Positions 3,348 through 20,438 of a DNA stretch of 64,000 nt are shown piece by piece (positions within the stretch are counted from its first letter, which is position 1; each line of letters begins with the position of its first letter). A program made the translations under genes and the position numbers. The stretch covers positions 2,000,001-2,064,000 of the forward strand of contig NZ_CP150496.1 in assembly GCF_038019025.1 (NCBI RefSeq). Direction: 5' to 3'. Origin of the DNA: Polaribacter marinaquae (GTDB lineage: Bacteria > Bacteroidota > Bacteroidia > Flavobacteriales > Flavobacteriaceae). The notes beneath the pieces are model-generated. The model made no database searches. It was not told the DNA's origin and saw only the letters and a program-made list of their open reading frames with translations.

Positions 3348-3376
3348 GTAGGGTAATTCTAAATAGAGTTGTCTTA
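3348..3376 (+). promoter_or_regulatory. Putative ECF-sigma promoter, site A
   Basis: GTAGGGTAA (3348-3356), 11 bases, then GTTGTCTTA (3368-3376). Its second block ends 40 bases before the ATG at 3417. The same blocks with identical spacing occur at 16305-16333, 16371-16399 and 16956-16984, around the ECF sigma/FecR locus. The promoter reading is an inference from conserved spacing and orientation. Confidence 0.65.
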
Positions 3377-3416: not shown

Positions 3417-3752
3417 ATGAAAAAAATTACATTATTAACAGTATTTATTATTACAAGCTTATTTAGTATGAGCTCTAATGCACAATCAAACGAAAAATCT
3501 TTAACTGCAATTTATAAAGGAATGACGGTTTCAGATAATTTTAAGTTTGAAGACAGCAAGGGAAACCCTATTGTTTTTCATGATGAAGACCAATCTTTTA
3601 AAGGTTCTATTACCCTTTGGGATGAAGGTTTAATAGGTAAAAGAATTAAAGTTTCTTATAAATGGGTAGATGTGCATTTATTTAATGACCAAGGTTTAGC
3701 TACAGGAGAAACTATGAAAGTTAAAAGAATTTTTAATTATAGTTTACTATAA
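3417..3752 (+). CDS. Small secreted protein, family copy 2
   Basis: A 111-residue protein with a clear Sec signal peptide (residues 1-22, ending SNAQS). The mature part has the conserved blocks S-L-TAIYKGMTVSDNFKFED, IVFHDED, LWDEGLIGKRIKVSYKWVDV and TGETMKVKRI, nearly the same as in the gene starting at 4052 and more distantly the one at 52. The predicted mature domain is about 85 residues, rich in beta strands, and of unknown function. The upstream region carries a copy of the two-block motif found around the ECF sigma/FecR locus at 16-17 kb, so it may belong to that regulon. The adjacent paralogue has a different promoter, suggesting that duplicates are separately regulated. Confidence 0.8.
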   Translation: MKKITLLTVFIITSLFSMSSNAQSNEKSLTAIYKGMTVSDNFKFEDSKGNPIVFHDEDQSFKGSITLWDEGLIGKRIKVSYKWVDVHLFNDQGLATGETMKVKRIFNYSLL

Positions 3753-3924: not shown

Positions 3925-4051
3925 TCTAAAATATAATTAGGCCGTTACTTTGTATCAGAATTAAAGGATACATTTTAAAACCTTAATCTATAAAGAAAGA
4001 CAATAATTAAAATTGTCATCAATCAATAAAAACTTTAAAATATTAGAAATT

Positions 4052-4459
4052 ATGAAAAAATTATTTACTCAAACAGTTGCCTTTTTATTTGTTGCCATTT
4101 TATCTTTTAATGCACAAAGTACAAATGCACAAGAAACTACAAAAACAAGTAACGAAAAAACTTTAACTGCTACTTTTAAAGGTTTAAACGTTAGTGATAA
4201 CTTTAAATTTGAATTTAATAACGGAGAAGCAATTGTATTTCACGATGAAGCGAAATCATCACCAAGTAAAATTAGTTTATTTGACGAAGGATTAATTGGA
4301 GATAGATTTACAATTTTTTACAAGTGGGTAGATGTAATGTTATTTGATAACGGAGTGCCTACTGGTGAGACTATGAAGGTGAAAAGAATTTATAACATTA
4401 TGCCAGCAAATAATTCTTACCAAAGACCAGATGTTTTGGTTACTTCTAACGAACAATAG
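4052..4459 (+). CDS. Small secreted protein, family copy 3
   Basis: A 135-residue protein starting at the ATG at 4052; the frame extends upstream to a TTG at 4013, but only the ATG gives a clean Sec signal peptide (MKKLFTQ..., cleavage near STNAQE). The mature part repeats the family blocks TLTATFKGLNVSDNFKFEF, IVFHDEA, LFDEGLIGDRF, YKWVDVMLFD and PTGETMKVKRIYNI, with an extra 20-residue C-terminal tail absent from the other copies. Function is unknown. The 300-base upstream gap holds a direct repeat with 21-base spacing rather than the ECF-type motif found before the sister gene. A good terminator follows. Confidence 0.8.
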   Translation: MKKLFTQTVAFLFVAILSFNAQSTNAQETTKTSNEKTLTATFKGLNVSDNFKFEFNNGEAIVFHDEAKSSPSKISLFDEGLIGDRFTIFYKWVDVMLFDNGVPTGETMKVKRIYNIMPANNSYQRPDVLVTSNEQ

Positions 4460-8783: not shown

Positions 8784-9791
8784 TTATTCTTGATTTTCGA
8801 TAGCAACTTTTATTTTACCTTCAAGTTCTTCTGCTAATTCAGGATTGTCTTTAATTAAACCTTTAACGGCATCTCTACCTTGACCTAATTTTGTCTCTCC
8901 GTAACTAAACCAAGATCCACTTTTCTTAACAATACCTAAATCTACACCAATATCTAAAATTTCACCAACTTTAGATATTCCTTGCCCATACATAATATCA
9001 AACTCTGTAATTTGAAAAGGTGGTGCAACTTTATTTTTAACAATTTTAACCTTTGTACTGTTACCAATAACTCGGTCTCCGTCTTTAATTTGTGTTCTTC
9101 TTCTAATATCTAATCTAACAGAAGCATAAAACTTTAATGCATTACCACCCGTTGTTGTTTCTGGGTTACCAAACATTACACCAATTTTTTCTCTTAATTG
9201 GTTAATAAATATAACTGTACATTTTGTTTTAGAAATAGTACCTGTTAATTTACGTAATGCTTGCGACATTAAACGTGCATGAAGACCCATTTTAGAATCT
9301 CCCATTTCTCCTTCTATTTCAGATTTTGGTGTTAATGCTGCTACAGAATCAATAACAACAATATCAATTGCACCAGAACGAATTAAGTTTTCTGCAATTT
9401 CTAATGCTTGCTCACCATGGTCTGGTTGAGAAATTATTAAATTATCTATATCTACACCTAAGTTTTCTGCATAAAATTTATCGAATGCATGTTCTGCATC
9501 AATAAAAGCTGCAATACCACCTGCTTTTTGTGCTTCTGCAATTGCGTGTAACGTTAAAGTTGTTTTACCAGAAGATTCTGGACCGTAAATTTCTATAACT
9601 CTACCTCTTGGATAACCACCTACTCCTAAAGCCAAATCTAAACCTAAAGAACCAGATGAAATTGCATCTATATCTTCTGTAACTACATCACCTAATTTCA
9701 TTACAGAACCTTTACCATATGTCTTATCTAGCTTATCTAGAGTAAGTTGAAGTGCTTTAAGTTTTGCTGCTTTTTCTTTATCTGCCGCCAT
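8784..9791 (-). CDS. recA: Recombinase RecA
   Basis: A 335-residue DNA strand-exchange ATPase and SOS co-protease. The Walker A motif GPESSGKTT is at 70-78, and the long conserved core includes [39 protein letters not shown] (loop L2 region) and [11 protein letters not shown]. The C-terminal tail is short and ends with the acidic/basic helix typical of Bacteroidota RecA. It is a monocistronic unit with its own terminator. No LexA-type operator is evident upstream. Confidence 0.98.
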
Positions 9792-9899
9792 AAATCTTGC
9801 TTGTTTTATTTTTAAATAAGTGCCACAAGTTACAAAAAACTAAGATGAATTCACTAAAAAAAAAGAGTCAAATTTATACTATTTTTACACAAATTATTT

Positions 9900-13141: not shown

Positions 13142-13720
13142 ATGAGTAATCATCATCATTTTATGATTCATAAACCTTGGGGAATGATTTCTCAGTTTAT
13201 AAATCCCGCGAAGCGGAAAAAAAAATTATTAGGAGATTTGTACGATTTTCCTGAAGGAACGATGGCAATTGGTCGTTTAGATGTGCCTTCTGAAGGTTTA
13301 TTACTTTTAACTACAGATGGTAAAGTATCCGCAGAAATTAGATCTAGAAAATACGAAAAAGAATATTATGTACAAGTAGATGGTGTTATAACTGAAAAGG
13401 AAGTTGAGCAATTAAGAAATGGTGTAGAAATAGGTTTTAATGGTAAGAAATATACCACAAAACCCGGAAAAGCTTTTATAATTGATGATCCTAAATTTCC
13501 GTTAAGAAGTCAGAAAATAAGAGATGAAAGACATGGCCCAACAAGTTGGGTTTCTATAATAATTAGAGAAGGTAAATTTAGGCAAGTTCGAAAAATGACT
13601 GCTGCTGTTGGGTTACCAACTTTGCGCTTAATTAGAGTAAGAATTGGCGATATACTTTTAGGAGATTTAGAAGTAGGCGGCGTTAAAGAAATAACTAATT
13701 TAATAGAAAAAGAGAAGTAA
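13142..13720 (+). CDS. rRNA pseudouridine synthase, RsuA/RluE type
   Basis: A 192-residue pseudouridine synthase lacking an N-terminal S4 domain, as in RluE (23S rRNA U2457). The catalytic signature GRLDVPSEGLLLLTTDG (about 41-57) contains the essential Asp. YEKEYYVQVDG and EGKFRQVRKMTAAVGLPTLRLIRVRIGDI give the remaining RsuA-family motifs. The length matches RluE, but the choice between RluE and related S4-less enzymes is a family-level call. It begins five bases after the adhesin gene stops, yet has an unrelated function. Its stop lies inside the following terminator hairpin. Confidence 0.88.
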   Translation: MSNHHHFMIHKPWGMISQFINPAKRKKKLLGDLYDFPEGTMAIGRLDVPSEGLLLLTTDGKVSAEIRSRKYEKEYYVQVDGVITEKEVEQLRNGVEIGFNGKKYTTKPGKAFIIDDPKFPLRSQKIRDERHGPTSWVSIIIREGKFRQVRKMTAAVGLPTLRLIRVRIGDILLGDLEVGGVKEITNLIEKEK

Positions 13721-13737
13721 AATTACTTCTCTTTTTT
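13711..13737. terminator. Terminator overlapping a stop codon
   Basis: Stem AGAGAAGTAA / TTACTTCTCT followed by T6; the TAA in the left arm is the pseudouridine synthase stop. The A-run on the other side may also serve the converging barrel gene. Confidence 0.8.
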
Positions 13738-13751
13738 ATTTTTGGTTCTAA

Positions 13752-14339
13752 CTAAAATTCAAATCCTAAATAGATTTGTACTACTCTATTTTTTGGTTTG
13801 TCTTGGTCATAAATATCACTTTGACCAATATGATATCTGGCACCTAAACTAACACCTGCATCACTTTTAAAACCAGCACCAACATTTACACCCCAATCAA
13901 AATTACTTGGTTCAAACTCTTGTTCTGTATCATATAAAACAAAACCAGCATCAAAAGTTTCTTTGTGTGAAATCGAAAATCCTATTTGCGGACCAGCTTC
14001 TATAAAAAAGCTTTTAACTGGATACATTTTTAACATTAAAGGCACATTTATATATTCTAATTTTTGTGTGTAAGTACCGTTATCATCAATTATTTTATAA
14101 CCTTGTTGTGAATATAAAATCTCTGGCTGAATTGCAATGTGTTTACCAATGTAAGATTCGCCATAAATACCAACATGAAATCCGTGTAAATTAGAAGTTT
14201 CAGATGTTCCGTCGAAACTTACAGAAGATAAATTGTAACCACCTTTAATACCAGCCGAAGCTGAGTTTTTTCTGTCTTGAGCGTTTAATGTAATACTTGT
14301 AATAAACATTAAAGCTATTGTAAAATATAATGTTTTCAT
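13752..14339 (-). CDS. Outer-membrane beta-barrel protein (PorT/OMP_b-brl family)
   Basis: A 195-residue protein with a Sec signal peptide (1-20, ending LNAQD) and an eight-strand-like barrel: GIKGGYNLSSVSF start, IAIQPEILYSQQGYK, YINVPLMLKMYPVKSFFIEAGPQIGF and a terminal aromatic IYLGFEF. These are the typical motifs of the Bacteroidota outer_membrane_beta-barrel family. Location in the outer membrane is inferred. It is the last gene of a minus-strand operon (lipoprotein, metalloprotease, barrel), 16 bases after the metalloprotease, facing away from the ECF sigma locus. Confidence 0.88.
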   Translation of the reverse strand: MKTLYFTIALMFITSITLNAQDRKNSASAGIKGGYNLSSVSFDGTSETSNLHGFHVGIYGESYIGKHIAIQPEILYSQQGYKIIDDNGTYTQKLEYINVPLMLKMYPVKSFFIEAGPQIGFSISHKETFDAGFVLYDTEQEFEPSNFDWGVNVGAGFKSDAGVSLGARYHIGQSDIYDQDKPKNRVVQIYLGFEF

Positions 14340-14355: not shown

Positions 14356-15132
14356 TTATTTACCGCCATTTGCCCTTAAATCTGCTAAACATTGTGCATC
14401 TAAAGTTGGTAAACTTCCGCCAGAAACCATATTGCCAATTCCTTGGCTAGATTCTGCGGCCCAATACATTAAACAATCTTGTTCGATGCAATGTTTTGGA
14501 TGTTCTTCATCTTCATGATCACTTTGTAAATCGGTTCCATGATTTGTTAAACCTAAAATATGACCAAATTCGTGATGAATAACAGAGCTTTCTAAAAGAC
14601 TTCTATTTGGCTCGAATGTGCTATCGCTTAAACCTTGTATTGTTTCTTGGTAAATAACAAAAGAAGTGTTCCAATAAGCGGTTCCTAAAATTGCACCTTG
14701 GTTGGTGTCTTTAGATGATTTACCATCAATAAATAACACCCAAACTGCAATTGTATTATTTGTGTTGTATTGTGTTCTGTTTACTTTTTCAATTTCTACA
14801 ACCTCATCTAAAGTATAAGTTGTTTTGCCTGTGTTTTCTATTGATTTTTCTACAAAAGTTACACCTTCTGGTTTAAAAGTTCTATCGTTTATAAAATTTT
14901 TAAAGTTATTTAAAGCTGTTTCTGTTGGTTTAAAACCTTCTATGTAAGCAACTTCAACAATCATTTTTTTAAAAGCAGAAGCAGAAAGTAAATCGTTAGC
15001 AGAAGAACCTGTTTGTTGTCTATTTAAATTAACATTTATAGGTGTTTCTGATTCTGTAATTATATCTGTTTCTGATGAACAAGATGTAATTATTAAACAA
15101 ACTAAAAATACTTTTAATAAAAATTTTATCAT
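14356..15132 (-). CDS. Metzincin-like zinc metalloprotease lipoprotein
   Basis: A 258-residue protein with a lipoprotein signal (lipobox IITSC, Cys18). The zinc site is HEFGHILGLTNH (187-198): H187, E188 and H191 as in HExxHxxG, with Asn197/His198 at the usual third-ligand place, so the third ligand is probably His198, one residue later than in classical metzincins. A CLMYW segment (220-224) fits a Met-turn. An Asp/His-rich patch (SDHEDEEHPKH, 204-214) could bind additional metal. It is likely anchored to the outer membrane and degrades an unknown substrate. It is the second gene of the operon governed by the putative ECF promoters at 16.3 kb. Confidence 0.85.
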   Translation of the reverse strand: MIKFLLKVFLVCLIITSCSSETDIITESETPINVNLNRQQTGSSANDLLSASAFKKMIVEVAYIEGFKPTETALNNFKNFINDRTFKPEGVTFVEKSIENTGKTTYTLDEVVEIEKVNRTQYNTNNTIAVWVLFIDGKSSKDTNQGAILGTAYWNTSFVIYQETIQGLSDSTFEPNRSLLESSVIHHEFGHILGLTNHGTDLQSDHEDEEHPKHCIEQDCLMYWAAESSQGIGNMVSGGSLPTLDAQCLADLRANGGK

Positions 15133-15210: not shown

Positions 15211-16263
15211 TTAAAGTTTCTGAAAAGTTAATGTAATGCTAGCATCTGTTTTACTTTGTAAAGCAACCATTGTATCGCTGTAAGTAGCAATAACCCAATC
15301 GTTATTTAAAGCACTAACAGTATTATTGCTACCAAATGCAATGTTTAAAAATACTGATGTATCTGAACTTACAGCATAGGTACCCTCTATTTCTGATAAT
15401 GTAGCGTTTACATTATTTTTAGCAACTAATTTAAGATCGTTTGTGAACTCTATCGACCAATCTGCAAAATCTGCTGCAGTATTAACACCTGCGTTTACAA
15501 AACTTTGTACTTTAAATTGTGTGTTTGTTAAAGTTGCTTCTACTTCTGCAGCCATTGTTGCAGCCTCATCTTCTTCTTCTTCAAATTGAACACAATCTGA
15601 AATTGAATCTCTAAACTCTGCATCAGAATTTAATTGAACAGTTGTACCATTGCTTAATGTTGCACTTACAGGATAATTAACTGTAAAAAATTCATCTGCT
15701 TGTAAACCAGTCATAAAAGTATATAATTGCTTTTCAGATTGTAAAACAACTGTACCTGTTTGCTCTAAAGCAATATCGTACGTTAACATTGTAATAGGAA
15801 AATTAAAATCTATACAAGAAATAGCATCTCTACCTTCTGCTTCTGCATTTTCACATGCTGCATTTAAAGCGTCTAATTCTTCTTGATTATTAACTGTTAC
15901 TTCTGTGTAATTACTAGTTCTTACTCTTATAGGAAAGTTAAATGTAACATTATCTGCATCATCATTAAATTCTGCAAAAATTTCTAAAACTGTAGAAAAA
16001 TCTAACTCAGATATTATTGAAATATTTTGTCCGTTTACGGTTGCTGTTAAAGGAAATAACAACTCTGTACACGCATTACCATCTAAAAAATCATCATCAG
16101 AACCATCGTTCATAGATGCTCTTTCAAAATTAGATGCTGTTGGCGATGTAGAAGAGTTTGCGTTTGGGTTAGCACCAACTTCTGTATTTTCTTCTGATTG
16201 ACAAGATGTAAATCCTAAAACTGCTGTTAATGCAAATACTGTAATTAATTTTAATGTTTTCAT
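15211..16263 (-). CDS. Lipoprotein of unknown function, first gene of ECF-linked operon
   Basis: A 350-residue protein starting at the ATG at 16263; the upstream TTG would bypass the lipoprotein signal and place the putative promoter inside the gene. Signal: MKTLKLITVFALTAVLGFTSC. The mature part is acidic, with three similar segments built on 'CxxxxFPI/Vxxxxx.NG...v.v.s..ef...' (FPLTATVNGQNI, FPIRVRTSNYTEV, YPVSATLSNGTTV), suggesting an internal repeat of a small beta domain. The C-terminal part resembles lipocalin-like Bacteroidota domains (ADFADWSIEFTNDLKLVAKNN). Function is unknown. It heads the operon with the metalloprotease and barrel, and two putative ECF promoters precede it. Confidence 0.8.
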   Translation of the reverse strand: MKTLKLITVFALTAVLGFTSCQSEENTEVGANPNANSSTSPTASNFERASMNDGSDDDFLDGNACTELLFPLTATVNGQNISIISELDFSTVLEIFAEFNDDADNVTFNFPIRVRTSNYTEVTVNNQEELDALNAACENAEAEGRDAISCIDFNFPITMLTYDIALEQTGTVVLQSEKQLYTFMTGLQADEFFTVNYPVSATLSNGTTVQLNSDAEFRDSISDCVQFEEEEDEAATMAAEVEATLTNTQFKVQSFVNAGVNTAADFADWSIEFTNDLKLVAKNNVNATLSEIEGTYAVSSDTSVFLNIAFGSNNTVSALNNDWVIATYSDTMVALQSKTDASITLTFQKL

Positions 16264-16304: not shown

Positions 16305-16333
16305 TAAGACAACTCAATTTTATTTTACCCTAC
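16305..16333 (-). promoter_or_regulatory. Putative ECF-sigma promoter, site B
   Basis: On the minus strand: GTAGGGTAA (16333-16325), 11 bases, GTTGTCTTA (16313-16305), ending 41 bases before the lipoprotein ATG. The distance is almost the same as at site A, where it is 40 bases. Confidence 0.7.
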
Positions 16334-16370
16334 TTTTTTTTGAAAGACTATTTTTTTGCCCTTCTGTTAA

Positions 16371-16399
16371 TAAAACAACTACACATTTATTTACCCTAC
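16371..16399 (-). promoter_or_regulatory. Putative ECF-sigma promoter, site C
   Basis: On the minus strand: GTAGGGTAA (16399-16391), 11 bases, GTTGTTTTA (16379-16371), pointing toward the lipoprotein operon, in tandem 66 bases upstream of site B. Its outer edge overlaps the TACCTTTG element of the sigma gene promoter on the plus strand. Confidence 0.6.
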
Positions 16400-16404
16400 C
16401 TTTG
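16397..16404 (+). promoter_or_regulatory. Sigma gene promoter -7 element (TACCTTTG)
   Basis: An exact TAnnTTTG match 39 bases before the ECF sigma ATG, suggesting that the sigma gene is read by the housekeeping sigma. No convincing -33 element is visible. It overlaps site C by three bases on the opposite strand. Confidence 0.55.
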
Positions 16405-16443
16405 TATTCTATTTTTTTTATTTTTATAATTTAAAACCCTACA

Positions 16444-16953
16444 ATGACTAATAAATCTCTTTGCGACGAAATTTATTTTAATGAGTTTTACACATCTCAT
16501 ATACAGTCTGCTAGTAACTTTGCTTACTACAAATCTGGCAATAAAAATACGTCTTTAGATTTAGCGCAAGAAGCTTTTATAAAAATATGGGAAAATTGTG
16601 CAAAAATAGATTTTTCTAAAGCTAAATCTTACTTATTTACAGTTGTTAACAATCTATTTTTAAATAAAGTTAAGCACGAAAAGGTTGTTTTCGAGTATGC
16701 AAAAAATAGTCCGTATTTAGATGTTAACAATCAAAGTCCAGAGTATTTATTAGAAGAAGAAGAATTTAAAAATAAACTTAAAAATGCCATAGAAAACTTA
16801 ACCGAAGGTGAAAGAGAAGTTTTTCTGATGAATAGAATAGACGGCAAAAAATACAGAGAAATAGCAGAAATGCTAGAAATATCGCAAAAAGCAGTAGAAA
16901 AAAGAATGTCTTCTGCCCTTAAAAAATTAAGAAGTAAAATAGATGGAATTTAA
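16444..16953 (+). CDS. ECF RNA polymerase sigma factor (FecI-like)
   Basis: A 169-residue sigma-70 family factor with only regions 2 and 4. Region 2: DLAQEAFIKIWENCAKIDFSKAKSYLFTVVNNLFLN (about 40-75), with the characteristic LAQEAFIKIW. Region 4: LTEGEREVFLMNRIDGKKYREIAEMLEISQKAVEKRMSSALKKLR (about 119-163), a helix-turn-helix for -35 recognition. It is directly followed by FecR and an STN-TonB receptor, the classical FecI-FecR-FecA arrangement for cell-surface signalling, in which the receptor's ligand state releases the sigma through FecR. The likely target motif is seen four times in the window. Confidence 0.93.
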   Translation: MTNKSLCDEIYFNEFYTSHIQSASNFAYYKSGNKNTSLDLAQEAFIKIWENCAKIDFSKAKSYLFTVVNNLFLNKVKHEKVVFEYAKNSPYLDVNNQSPEYLLEEEEFKNKLKNAIENLTEGEREVFLMNRIDGKKYREIAEMLEISQKAVEKRMSSALKKLRSKIDGI

Positions 16954-16955
16954 AA

Positions 16956-16984
16956 GTAGGGTAAATAAACATTTAGTTGTTATA
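16956..16984 (+). promoter_or_regulatory. Putative ECF-sigma promoter, site D
   Basis: GTAGGGTAA (16956-16964), 11 bases, GTTGTTATA (16976-16984), located between the sigma stop and the FecR ATG (18 bases downstream). It would allow FecR and the receptor to be induced independently of the sigma gene. Confidence 0.65.
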
Positions 16985-17002: not shown

Positions 17003-17917
17003 ATGGAAAATAACAAAGACATATTAAAATGGCTAAACAGAGATATTTCTGATGAAGAATTACTGCGTTTAAAAGAAAATGAAGGTTTTGATACTTTAGA
17101 AAAAATTGCGCATTACACATCGCAAATAGAAACACCTAAAGTTAATGTAGAAAATGCATTGGCAGACTTAAAATTAAAAACTCAAAACAAAACCAAAAAA
17201 CAAAAAGTTATTGCTTTTAGTTTTAATAAAGTCTTTAAATACGCGGCAGTTATTGCAGTATTGTTAACAACTAGTTACTTTTTACTTTATAGTAACGATA
17301 CCAATTATACTACAGAATTTGCAGAAACTAAAACCTTTAATTTACCCGATAATTCAGAAGTTATTTTAAATGCAAATTCTAACGTTTCTTATGTTAAAAA
17401 AGAGTGGGAAAATAATAGAAATTTAACCCTAGACGGAGAAGCATTTTTTAAAGTACAAAAAGGTGAGAAATTTACTGTAAATACAGAAATAGGTAATGTT
17501 ACCGTTCTTGGTACGCAATTTAATGTTAAAGAAAGAGCCAATTATTTCGAAGTAAAAACATACGAAGGTTTGGTAAGCGTAGCTTATAAAGACACACTTG
17601 TAAAATTACCTAAAGGAACAATTTTTAAAGTTGTAAACGGTATTATAGATACTAATACTACTTTTGATACAACAGAAAAATCTTGGTTACAAAAAGAATC
17701 TAATTTTAAAAGTACACAGTTAAAATTTGTACTTAAAGAAATAGAAAATCAATTTGGTTATACAATTACAACTAACAACATTAATTTAGAAACTTTATAT
17801 TCTGGTGGCTTTACACATTTAGATATTAATGTTGCATTACAATCGGTAACAATACCGTTGCAGTTGTCTTATAAGATTGATGGTAAAACAATTACGATCT
17901 TTACATATGATCAATAA
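17003..17917 (+). CDS. FecR-family anti-sigma regulator
   Basis: A 304-residue single-pass inner-membrane protein: cytoplasmic anti-sigma part (1-75), transmembrane helix (about 78-96, YAAVIAVLLTTSYFLLYS), a periplasmic FecR domain (about 103-200, with FNLPDNSEVILNANS, LDGEAFFKVQKGEKFTV and VTVLGTQFNVK), and a C-terminal DUF4974/STN-like domain (about 230-300, LKFVLKEIENQFGYTI...YSGGFTHLDINVALQSVTIPL). It transduces the receptor signal to the adjacent sigma. It overlaps the start of the TonB receptor gene by 11 bases, indicating translational coupling. Confidence 0.93.
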   Translation: MENNKDILKWLNRDISDEELLRLKENEGFDTLEKIAHYTSQIETPKVNVENALADLKLKTQNKTKKQKVIAFSFNKVFKYAAVIAVLLTTSYFLLYSNDTNYTTEFAETKTFNLPDNSEVILNANSNVSYVKKEWENNRNLTLDGEAFFKVQKGEKFTVNTEIGNVTVLGTQFNVKERANYFEVKTYEGLVSVAYKDTLVKLPKGTIFKVVNGIIDTNTTFDTTEKSWLQKESNFKSTQLKFVLKEIENQFGYTITTNNINLETLYSGGFTHLDINVALQSVTIPLQLSYKIDGKTITIFTYDQ

Positions 17918-20438
17918 AATAGCTATAATTTTATTAGGTTTTTTACTTACTACAAGTATAAATTATGCTCAGAAATCGTCTTCTAAAGTTGGGCTTTCTT
18001 CTTTGCTAATTTCCTTAGAAAAAACATACGATATTAAGTTTTCTTATTCTGATGATGACATCGAAAACATAAAAATTATAGCACCACAAACAGGTATTTC
18101 TTTAGAATCTCTTTTAAGTTATCTAAACGATAAAACTTATTTACAATTTAAAACATTAGACAACAAATATGTAACAGTTTCGTTTTTAAATAAAACTATA
18201 AATATCTGCGGAAACGTATTAGAAAGTCAAAATCTTATGCCTTTAGCTTTAGCATCTATAAAAGTAAATGGTTATAATTTAGGAACAACATCAAATACAA
18301 ACGGATCTTTTTATTTGCAAAATGTGCCGGTAAAATCTGTAATAAATATATCATATATCGGTTTTAAAAACTTAGAAATTTCTGCTAAAGAATTATTTCT
18401 AAATGCTAATTGTAAACAGCTGTATTTAGAAGAATCTTCAGAAATTTTATCAGAAATTACAATGCAAAAGTTTTTAACTTCTGGCTTGCAAAAAAGTGCC
18501 GATGGAAGCACAATTTTAAACACAGAAAAATTCGGAATTTTACCAGGATTAATAGAACCCGATATTTTAAAAACTATTAAAATTTTACCTGGCGTAGAAA
18601 GTGTAAACGAAAGTATTTCTAATATAAATGTAAGAGGTGGTACAAACGACCAGAATTTAATGCTTTGGGACGGAATTAAAATGTACCATGCAGGTCATTT
18701 TTTTGGTTTAATTTCTGCTTACAATCCGTATTTAACTAAAAAAGTTACGGTTACTAAAAATGGTACAAGTAGTGTTTTTTCCGACGGAGTTTCATCAACA
18801 ATTAATATGGAAACCTCGAATAGAATAACGAATAAATTTTCTGGCGGTGCAGGTTTTAATTTGATAAGTGCAGATGCTTTTGTACAAATACCAATTAAAG
18901 ATAATTTAGAATTACATGTTTCTGGTAGAAGATCTTTTACAGATTTTTTAAACACACCAACTTATACCAATTATTTTAATAGAAGTTTTCAAGATAATTC
19001 TATTGCTTCTAACAGTGTTAACAACGCAGAATCTAAATTTTTCTTCTACGACTATTCGTTTAAAATTTTATACGATCTTAATTACAATCATGCAATTAGA
19101 GCCAACTTTATTCACATAAAAAATAATTTAGATTATCTAGAACAATACACAAACAATAACAATTCTATTGAAGAAAATAGTAATTTAAAACAAGAAAATT
19201 TAGGTGCCAGAATTAATTGGGAAGCCAACTGGAACTCTAAATTTACAACCAATCTTTCGGCATTTATTTCTGATTATAGAATCAATTCTTCAGATTATAA
19301 TAAAGATACAGATCAGTTTCAAACACAATTTAACAATGTTTTAGAAACAGCGGTAAAACTAAATACTGTGTATGAATTTTCTGATTTTTTTTATTTAACA
19401 AACGGTTTTGTTTTTAACGAAATAGGCGTTAAAAATACCACAAGTATTAACGCACCAACTTTTTCTAAAACAATAAAAGAAGTGTTGTTAAAAAGTGCTT
19501 TTTATTCAGAAATTGAATATAAGAAAAACAATACTTACGCTAGAGTTGGTTTTAGAGCTAATTATTTTGATAAGTTTCAAAAATTTATTTTCGAGCCTAG
19601 AATAAACATAAGACAAAAACTAAATGAAACGTATTCTTTAAAGTTAGAAGGAGAGTTTAAAAATCAAACAACAGCTCAAAAAATAGATTTTGAAGATAAT
19701 TTTTTAGGTATCGAAAAACGTAGATGGATTTTATCTGATAATGATAGAACGCCAATAATAACAAGCAAACAAGCTTCTTTTGGTATTTCTTATACCAAAA
19801 ATAAATTATACGCAGATATTACAGGTTTTTATAAAGTAGTTAACGGTATTTCTACTGCAAATCAAGGTTTTTACAACAACACTCAGAATTTTAGTTCTAT
19901 TGGTAATTATAAAACTAAAGGAATTGAATTTTTAATTAACAAACAAACTAATACAATTAGTACTTGGTTAAGTTATACGTTGGCAGAAAACAACTACACA
20001 TTTGGTGTTTTTAATCCAAAGAAATTTGCAAATAGCTTAGATATTACACACTCTTTAAGTACTGCTTTTAATTATAATTTTACCAAAAATTTAAAAGCAT
20101 CTATTGGCGGAATTTTACGTTCTGGTAGGCCTTATACAAAACCTGTAGATGGTAACGAAACCTTACAAAATGGCGATAAAACTATTGTAAATTATGATAA
20201 CCCTAATACAGAAAATTTAGACAATTTTTTTAGAATTGATGTTTCTGGAAGTTATAATTTTACATTTTCTGAAGCTATAAAAGCCACAATTAGACTTGGT
20301 TTTACTAACATTACAGATAGAAAAAACACCATAGACTCTTACTATATTGTAGATGAATCGCAAGAAAATAATGTGAGAAGAATAGATAATTACTCGTTGC
20401 CTTTTACACCTAATTTAAGTTTTAGAGTACGTTTTTAG
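17907..20438 (+). CDS. TonB-dependent receptor/transducer with STN domain
   Basis: An 843-residue outer-membrane receptor starting at the ATG at 17907 (a longer frame begins in FecR). Signal peptide to about residue 22 (INYAQ). An STN signalling domain follows (about 30-95, DIKFSYSDDDIENIKI...LESLLSYLNDKTYLQFK), then a carboxypeptidase-regulatory-like domain (about 98-175, GNVLESQNLMPLALASIKVNG..GTTSNTNGSFYL), plug (LKTIKILPGVESVNESISNINVRGGTNDQNLMLWDGIKMYH) and a 22-strand-type barrel ending in LSFRVRF. The STN domain is what contacts FecR in Fec systems. The ligand is unknown and could be a siderophore or another large substrate. The gene ends two bases from the converging elaA-like gene with no clear terminator. 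Confidence 0.93.
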   Translation: MINKIAIILLGFLLTTSINYAQKSSSKVGLSSLLISLEKTYDIKFSYSDDDIENIKIIAPQTGISLESLLSYLNDKTYLQFKTLDNKYVTVSFLNKTINICGNVLESQNLMPLALASIKVNGYNLGTTSNTNGSFYLQNVPVKSVINISYIGFKNLEISAKELFLNANCKQLYLEESSEILSEITMQKFLTSGLQKSADGSTILNTEKFGILPGLIEPDILKTIKILPGVESVNESISNINVRGGTNDQNLMLWDGIKMYHAGHFFGLISAYNPYLTKKVTVTKNGTSSVFSDGVSSTINMETSNRITNKFSGGAGFNLISADAFVQIPIKDNLELHVSGRRSFTDFLNTPTYTNYFNRSFQDNSIASNSVNNAESKFFFYDYSFKILYDLNYNHAIRANFIHIKNNLDYLEQYTNNNNSIEENSNLKQENLGARINWEANWNSKFTTNLSAFISDYRINSSDYNKDTDQFQTQFNNVLETAVKLNTVYEFSDFFYLTNGFVFNEIGVKNTTSINAPTFSKTIKEVLLKSAFYSEIEYKKNNTYARVGFRANYFDKFQKFIFEPRINIRQKLNETYSLKLEGEFKNQTTAQKIDFEDNFLGIEKRRWILSDNDRTPIITSKQASFGISYTKNKLYADITGFYKVVNGISTANQGFYNNTQNFSSIGNYKTKGIEFLINKQTNTISTWLSYTLAENNYTFGVFNPKKFANSLDITHSLSTAFNYNFTKNLKASIGGILRSGRPYTKPVDGNETLQNGDKTIVNYDNPNTENLDNFFRIDVSGSYNFTFSEAIKATIRLGFTNITDRKNTIDSYYIVDESQENNVRRIDNYSLPFTPNLSFRVRF

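Follow-up and report, generated by a model that had tools for sequence, protein, structure and literature searches.

A two-block motif in Polaribacter marinaquae is very probably the promoter of a FecI-like ECF sigma factor and yields a candidate five-site regulon

The motif GTAGGGTAA-N11-GTTGTYWTA of Polaribacter marinaquae, two blocks with a fixed gap of 11 bases, very probably acts as the -35/-10 promoter of the neighbouring FecI-like ECF sigma factor. The whole explanation, in which the motif is the promoter of this sigma, signalling runs from a receptor through FecR, the regulon has five sites and the loop limits itself, is given a probability of about 0.88. Promoters of Bacteroidetes ECF sigma factors are rarely known. 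Prediction of ECF-controlled promoters has been called challenging and said to require transcription start data (PMC3878776), and when the motifs of Bacteroides thetaiotaomicron were reported, there was none for any of its ECF sigma factors (PMC7366714). Among the papers listed in literature searches, none describes the present motif; among the string matches listed, none was on Flavobacteriaceae promoters by title.

The window is a 64-kb stretch of P. marinaquae (GCF_038019025.1, NZ_CP150496.1, positions 2000001-2064000, + strand), and the genome searched is one contig of 3,165,535 bases. Four copies of the motif had been reported in the initial annotation, and all were recovered with 0 mismatches: site 1 at 3348-3376 (+), site 2 at 16333-16305 (-), site 3 at 16399-16371 (-), and site 4 at 16956-16984 (+). 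No additional match was present in the window, even with 3 mismatches allowed. In shuffled windows, the mean was 0.32 matches (up to 3 mismatches), and four matches were reached in 0 of 100 shuffles. A weight matrix derived from 137 sites in the loci of relatives gave 35.7, 43.5, 38.2, and 34.2 bits for sites 1 to 4, respectively; the runner-up place in the window scored -4.5, and the maximum in the reversed window was 0.8. The earlier statement that each copy points at a gene was borne out, with sites 2 and 3 sharing a target. The spacing of 40-41 nt between site and ATG also held, being 40 nt for site 1 and 41 nt for site 2. Site 4 lies 18 nt ahead of the fecR ATG. Site 3 stands in tandem upstream of site 2 and faces the same gene, 107 nt from its ATG.

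The genome-wide scan proposed in the initial annotation was carried out and gave 5 exact matches, no match with a single mismatch, one with two mismatches, and 14 with three, making 20 in total. The reversed pattern gave 22 matches at up to 3 mismatches and 0 at up to 1; hence, the 15 matches with two or three mismatches look like background. The fifth exact copy, absent from the earlier account, is located outside the window, 0.5 Mb away (genome positions 2505109-2505137). It ends 48 nt ahead of the ATG of a gene for a 148-aa secreted-looking protein with a His-rich stretch. A broader regulon in the P. marinaquae genome was not found at the fixed 11-base spacing (up to 3 mismatches, with the reversed pattern as background). 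As defined by the motif, the predicted regulon is five sites and four genes or operons. Besides the fifth site, the tandem pair and the lack of a site facing the sigma gene go beyond what had been noted before.

For comparison, the best 80 of 180 matching stretches were used, which are named loci carrying this sigma from Polaribacter, Tenacibaculum, Flavobacterium, Lacinutrix, Olleya, Winogradskyella, Confluentibacter, Leeuwenhoekiella, and others. The sigma factor of the window (16444-16953, +, 169 aa) has sigma regions 2 and 4 only (Sigma70_r2/r4; PF04542 at residues 16-79 and PF08281 at residues 111-162 of 169). Polaribacter strain BM10 has an identical sigma. Its best family was TIGR02985, Bacteroidetes FecI-like, at 121.8 bits, just below the cut-off of 126.4. 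Downstream is the gene for a FecR-like anti-sigma/sigma regulator of 304 aa (17003-17917, +), in which PF04773 (63.6 bits) and PF16344 scored above the cut-off; a homologue occurs in 80 of the 80 loci (best 80 of 180). The next gene (17907-20438, +) encodes a TonB-dependent receptor that, according to a domain scan, has an N-terminal signalling-like domain, CarboxypepD_reg, plug, and barrel. The coding region is taken from the first ATG in ORF 17877-20438, which itself begins with TTG. The plug was found, the barrel lay just below the cut-off, and the N-terminal region matched FecR_C weakly (E 5e-4). PF07660, which we take to be the STN domain, was not reported for this protein.

The main divergent target is the gene for a 350-aa acidic lipoprotein (15211-16263, -), with site 2 as its own predicted promoter. 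Two further genes follow on the same strand: one for a 258-aa lipoprotein with the motif of a metzincin-like metalloprotease (14356-15132, -; HEFGHILGLTN...HC-x4-C-x-M) and one for a 195-aa outer-membrane beta-barrel (13752-14339, -; PF13568), probably the last gene of the divergent operon. A terminator-like hairpin found by hairpin search lies past the operon (13706-13737, +); it is weak evidence, because 3 hairpins were found in the region against 2.1 expected by chance. Among the 67 full-length loci (>20 kb) of the best 80 of 180, FecR and the receptor were present in all 67, whereas 66 had the lipoprotein, 58 the metalloprotease, and 54 the barrel. The 350-aa lipoprotein of the window matched no Pfam or NCBIfam family, and its best match to solved structures had an E-value of 0.85. 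Its Cys21 is invariant across 43 aligned members, among which scattered weak Pfam matches occurred. The zinc motif HExxHxxG of the putative metalloprotease was found in 67 of the 67 homologues found, and CLM[YF], at the Met-turn, in 66 of the 67 (L114 is cut short). Asn occupies the place of the third ligand, which is H or D in the full HExxHxxGxx[H/D] motif, and metzincin and archaemetzincin families remained below the cut-off. A barrel homologue in genome G077 carries an exact site of its own (L183). A polysaccharide utilisation locus was rejected, as no SusD or CAZyme family was present among the ten window proteins scanned. If a guess is allowed, the lipoprotein, the putative metalloprotease, the barrel, and the His-rich protein suggest a role in the envelope or in metal or peptide handling.

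The motif travels with the sigma factor in relatives. At a threshold of 12 bits, 201 sites were found in the best 80 of 180 loci and 0 in the reversed sequences; the 201 sites arise partly by construction, because the 137 sites of the matrix come from the same 80 loci, and the reversed control is unaffected. A site precedes fecR in 79 of these 80 loci (best 80 of 180) and ends 9-22 nt (median 18) before the ATG; in the exception, L178, the sigma is present and the fecR site absent. At least one divergent-facing site upstream of the sigma gene was found in 75 of the 80 (best 80 of 180), with two sites in 28 loci, one in 47, and none in 5. In none of the 80 loci (best 80 of 180) does a site within 400 nt upstream face the sigma gene. 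By this measure, the sigma gene itself is outside its predicted regulon. Weak sites of 20-27 bits are the only ones in the Tenacibaculum loci L111-L115 and L119. There, 48 nt before the sigma gene, the fused GTAGGG/TAC[CT]TTTG box is kept and the -10 half has diverged to GTTTTCTAA; at 12 bits, no other site precedes the lipoprotein gene.

Among 97 sampled genomes of the genus, 36 contain the motif (up to 1 mismatch). The clade sigma (E<=1e-35) was found in 32 of the 36 motif genomes versus 22 of the 61 others (p 2e-7, with shared ancestry ignored), and the motif is present in all 17 sampled genomes whose sigma is at least 88% identical. Four genomes, G004, G029, G030, and G054, have a site (up to 1 mismatch) without the clade sigma at E<=1e-35; G030 is only 53% complete. 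The G004 site (L091) lies before a 111-aa homologue, those of G029 and G030 (L041 and L049) lie before His-rich homologues, and that of G054 (L045) precedes no ORF.

The sites also carry signatures of promoters. A pyrimidine-purine pair (YR) occupies motif positions 34-35 in all five sites of P. marinaquae and, counted over unique sites, in 72 of 77 + sites and 111 of 117 - sites; motif position 37 is A in 88% and 93% of the + and - sites, respectively. Transcription had been expected to start 5-10 nt after the second block, and the pair falls exactly 6 nt past it. Since an initiator is expected there, the predicted starts are 3382 for site 1, 16299 for site 2, 16365 for site 3, and 16990 for site 4, which would give fecR a leader of 13 nt. 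At motif position 26, the fecR site and the lipoprotein site agree in 72 of 75 loci (C at both in 60, T at both in 12) and differ in 3, an agreement that is partly phylogenetic, as shared ancestry inflates the counts and p values ignore it. In some loci, both sites have changed to GTGTC or the like, and a few loci have CGTC. The conservation of the fecR site, the position-26 agreement, and the placement of YR all support the original proposal that the blocks are a -35/-10 pair for this sigma.

Dimeric regulators, too, typically bind two conserved half-sites at a fixed distance, and the two blocks might then be the operator of a DNA-binding transcription factor. The blocks, however, are neither inverted nor direct repeats of one another, and the scan of ten window proteins recognised no further regulator. 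This reading is hardly probable and was rejected as the main one because of the constant start-like YR 6 nt past the second block and the distance of merely 9-22 nt from site to fecR start. The motif could instead be an ECF promoter that is read by another sigma or by several paralogous ones, without a private regulon. Such cross-recognition by another sigma is possible because the P. marinaquae genome has 11 sigma homologues. In relatives, moreover, inspection by eye of 14 loci showed near-identical sites, GTAGGGTA...TTGTTTTA or CTGTTTTA, close to the genes of paralogous sigmas (48-60% identity) in 10, and the four genomes named above have sites without a close sigma. Against this, the P. marinaquae genome has a single sigma at E<=1e-35, the next best being at about 1e-10, and all five exact sites have GTTGT, whereas the paralogue sites seen deviate at position 21 and/or 22. 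Reading by another sigma or by several is considered improbable, if less so than the operator. The preferred reading is that the motif is the promoter of the adjacent sigma.

The trans members of the regulon differ in how well they are supported. The fifth site is a strong candidate, because all 12 His-rich homologues in the genus sample have a site upstream (21.7-41.6 bits). Of the 97 genus genomes, 12 have this family, and 10 of these 12 belong to the 21 with a sigma at least 77% identical (p 1.4e-6 for co-occurrence, uncorrected for ancestry). In 11 named loci (best 80 of 180), the His-rich homologue is located 2.8-4.3 kb from the sigma gene, and a site is present in 11 of 11 (27.8-41.1 bits). 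The weaker candidate is the gene behind site 1 (3417-3752, +), which encodes a 111-aa secreted-looking protein without a Pfam family and had been taken for a remote regulon member. It has its own exact site, but only 4 of 28 homologues, itself included, carry one (31.6-38.8 bits), with scores of -9 or below for the remaining 24. The four site-bearing homologues are 50-100% identical to the window protein, and some homologues of 52-57% identity have no site. The 111-aa family as a core regulon member is thus unsupported, the 24 homologues without a site including the window paralogue at 4013-4459. This paralogue and another at 52-387 are 57% and about 30% identical to the 111-aa protein, respectively, and neither has an ECF site. 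The family is also repeated locally in G021 and G044. In L117, L121, L125, and L129, sites about 1.4-1.6 kb from the sigma gene precede a second gene of 349-355 aa.

Site 3, the sigma-proximal member of the tandem pair, overlaps the probable promoter of the sigma gene. On the + strand it reads TTACCC-TACCTTTG, and TACCTTTG (16397-16404, +) fits the Bacteroidetes housekeeping -7 consensus TAnnTTTG (PMC9723704; PMC7366714). The -35 block of site 3 and the -7 box have the bases 16397-16399 (TAC) in common. The same fused arrangement is found in relatives. In the two-site loci among the best 80 of 180, the boxes are fused at 14 of 28 proximal sites versus 0 of 28 distal ones (p 1.4e-5), and at the single sites of the same set (best 80 of 180), they are fused in 8 of 8 within 50 nt of the sigma gene and 0 of 39 farther away. 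In 11 common genomes of the Polaribacter type, mean spacer identity is 0.87 at site 3 versus 0.77 and 0.71 at the other sites. This -35/-7 overlap suggests that the sigma represses its own gene.

Site 3 could also be a mere duplicated promoter without a role in repression, its overlap with TACCTTTG being a coincidence. The stretches past sites 2 and 3 are alike (CTAACAGAA and TTAACAGAA), as from a tandem duplication, and in the Olleya/Lacinutrix group the equivalent site serves a candidate microprotein ORF, which is sufficient reason for keeping it. Half of the proximal sites (14 of 28, best 80 of 180 loci) are unfused, as are all 39 far single sites, those of Flavobacterium included. Against this explanation stands the fusion to TANNTTTG at proximal sites and never at distal ones (14 of 28 versus 0 of 28, best 80 of 180 loci). 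In Polaribacter-type genomes, moreover, the spacer of site 3 is the best kept, and several of these genomes have a degenerate site 2 or lack it. A duplication of this kind is a serious contender, at somewhat less than even odds. Self-repression through the overlap is the reading followed below.

In the proposed mechanism, the -35 box at about -34 to -26 and the -10 box at about -14 to -6 would be read by the sigma factor. The outer-membrane receptor would sense an extracellular ligand and signal via FecR, which would free or activate the sigma. Once active, the sigma would transcribe fecR and the receptor gene, the divergent lipoprotein-metalloprotease-barrel operon through its two tandem promoters, and the genes of at least two unlinked secreted proteins. 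We infer that the sigma gene has a separate housekeeping promoter and is not a target. An ECF-sigma polymerase bound at site 3 would exclude the housekeeping polymerase from the sigma gene; given the bases that the site-3 -35 box and the -7 box share, the active sigma is expected to prevent its gene from being transcribed. By blocking its own gene while raising its inhibitor FecR, the sigma would form a self-limiting loop.

In other genera, the proximal promoter may have a further product. In 19 distinct loci, the two divergent sites lie 150-169 nt from each other, and 16 of these loci have an ORF of 30-37 aa in between. The ORF is almost entirely one hydrophobic segment, such as METERLIEIVETLLIIVLLTSFAVSIYIINQLVDILG in Olleya (L152, positions 9754-9867, between the divergent sites and behind the sigma-proximal ECF site), and it begins 18-25 nt past the predicted start of the sigma-proximal promoter. 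The other loci with the ORF are L117, L118, L122-L124, L128, L130, L150, L161, L163, L164, L166, L201, L203, and L210. There is no such ORF in 3 of the 19 loci (L126, L139, which is the same as L202, and L204), and none was seen in Polaribacter-type loci, where 64-70 nt separate the sites. Synonymous divergence exceeded non-synonymous divergence in 116 of 120 pairs, which are non-independent, were aligned on amino acids, and include one ORF with an assumed TTG start. By this comparison, the candidate ORF is under purifying selection. In the Olleya loci, its TAG stop sits within the next GTAGGG (-35) box. The microprotein of the Olleya/Lacinutrix-type genera is apparently an overlooked, putative tiny membrane protein.

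In some relatives, mostly with paralogous sigmas, variants of the motif precede a conserved stretch of about 190 nt that has no ORF and ends in a terminator hairpin. This RNA-like element was found in 9 of 97 genomes at E<1e-19 (L225-L233, e.g., L028, positions 1530-1725, behind an ECF-site variant), and 18 more genomes have short weak matches. By eye, GTAGGGTAA stands directly ahead of the element in 9 of 9, with a different -10 block in G088 and G028. In the fold of 8 of the 9 elements, 8 of 48 predicted pairs had two-sided changes, all in the terminator stem. Rfam gave no match in ten loci. The P. marinaquae genome has a weak 62-nt match to the tail of the element (E 2.3e-5). A second kind of short non-coding stretch lies behind an ECF-like site in L032, L099, L190, and L025, with TGGGGAAT in common; in the first three, it has a hairpin and a T run (GGCTACC...GGTAGCC type). 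L098 has three sites about 400 nt apart.

The system is best likened to FecI-FecR-FecA signalling, to which the overlap with the sigma-gene promoter and the hidden microprotein would be added features. In Escherichia coli, the housekeeping sigma serves fecI, which is not autoregulated, fecIR is transcribed as one mRNA, and a single promoter is under FecI control (PMC9249621). The present locus likewise has an ECF sigma, a FecR-type regulator, and a putative signalling TonB receptor, and the sigma gene appears not to be autoregulated. Unlike in E. coli Fec, fecR would be a target, with a promoter between the sigma gene and fecR, and the predicted regulon has five sites, with unlinked targets and a divergent metalloprotease operon among its members. 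The proposed feedback most resembles HasI-HasS-HasR of Serratia, where hasI is not autoregulated and HasI raises hasS, the gene of its own regulator (PMC9249621), so that feedback acts on the inhibitor only. Serratia Has is not known to have such a promoter overlap, and its targets and phylum are other than those here.

Within the Flavobacteriaceae, the SM6 promoters of Flavobacterium psychrophilum are ECF-type, with a -10 CGT box and type IX secretion genes among the targets (PMC9723704). ECF-type promoters occur in both cases, and a few loci here have CGTC or GTGTC. Unlike the present motif, the SM6 promoters are not known to be tied to FecR; 'GTAGGG' and 'FecR' are absent from the main text of PMC9723704. 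Promoter motif 2 and the SigW-1/SigH-1 promoters of B. thetaiotaomicron have -30/-10 elements with TGTT near -10 (PMC7366714; PMC12596196). TGTT stands near -10 here as well, and the targets are other ones. The SigP motif (PMC4800418) differs from the one described here.

The motif is precise enough to give a candidate regulon list by sequence alone, and it is conserved across many genera. With it come a feedback design that can be tested and a candidate for a hidden microprotein gene. More tentatively, and less probably than not, the system may be self-limiting family-wide, the overlapping promoter may in several genera express a microprotein that regulates FecR or the receptor, and the sibling sigmas may extend the scheme to small RNAs. 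If this were true, the Flavobacteriaceae would have a family-wide surface-signalling sigma that induces its inhibitor and never itself.
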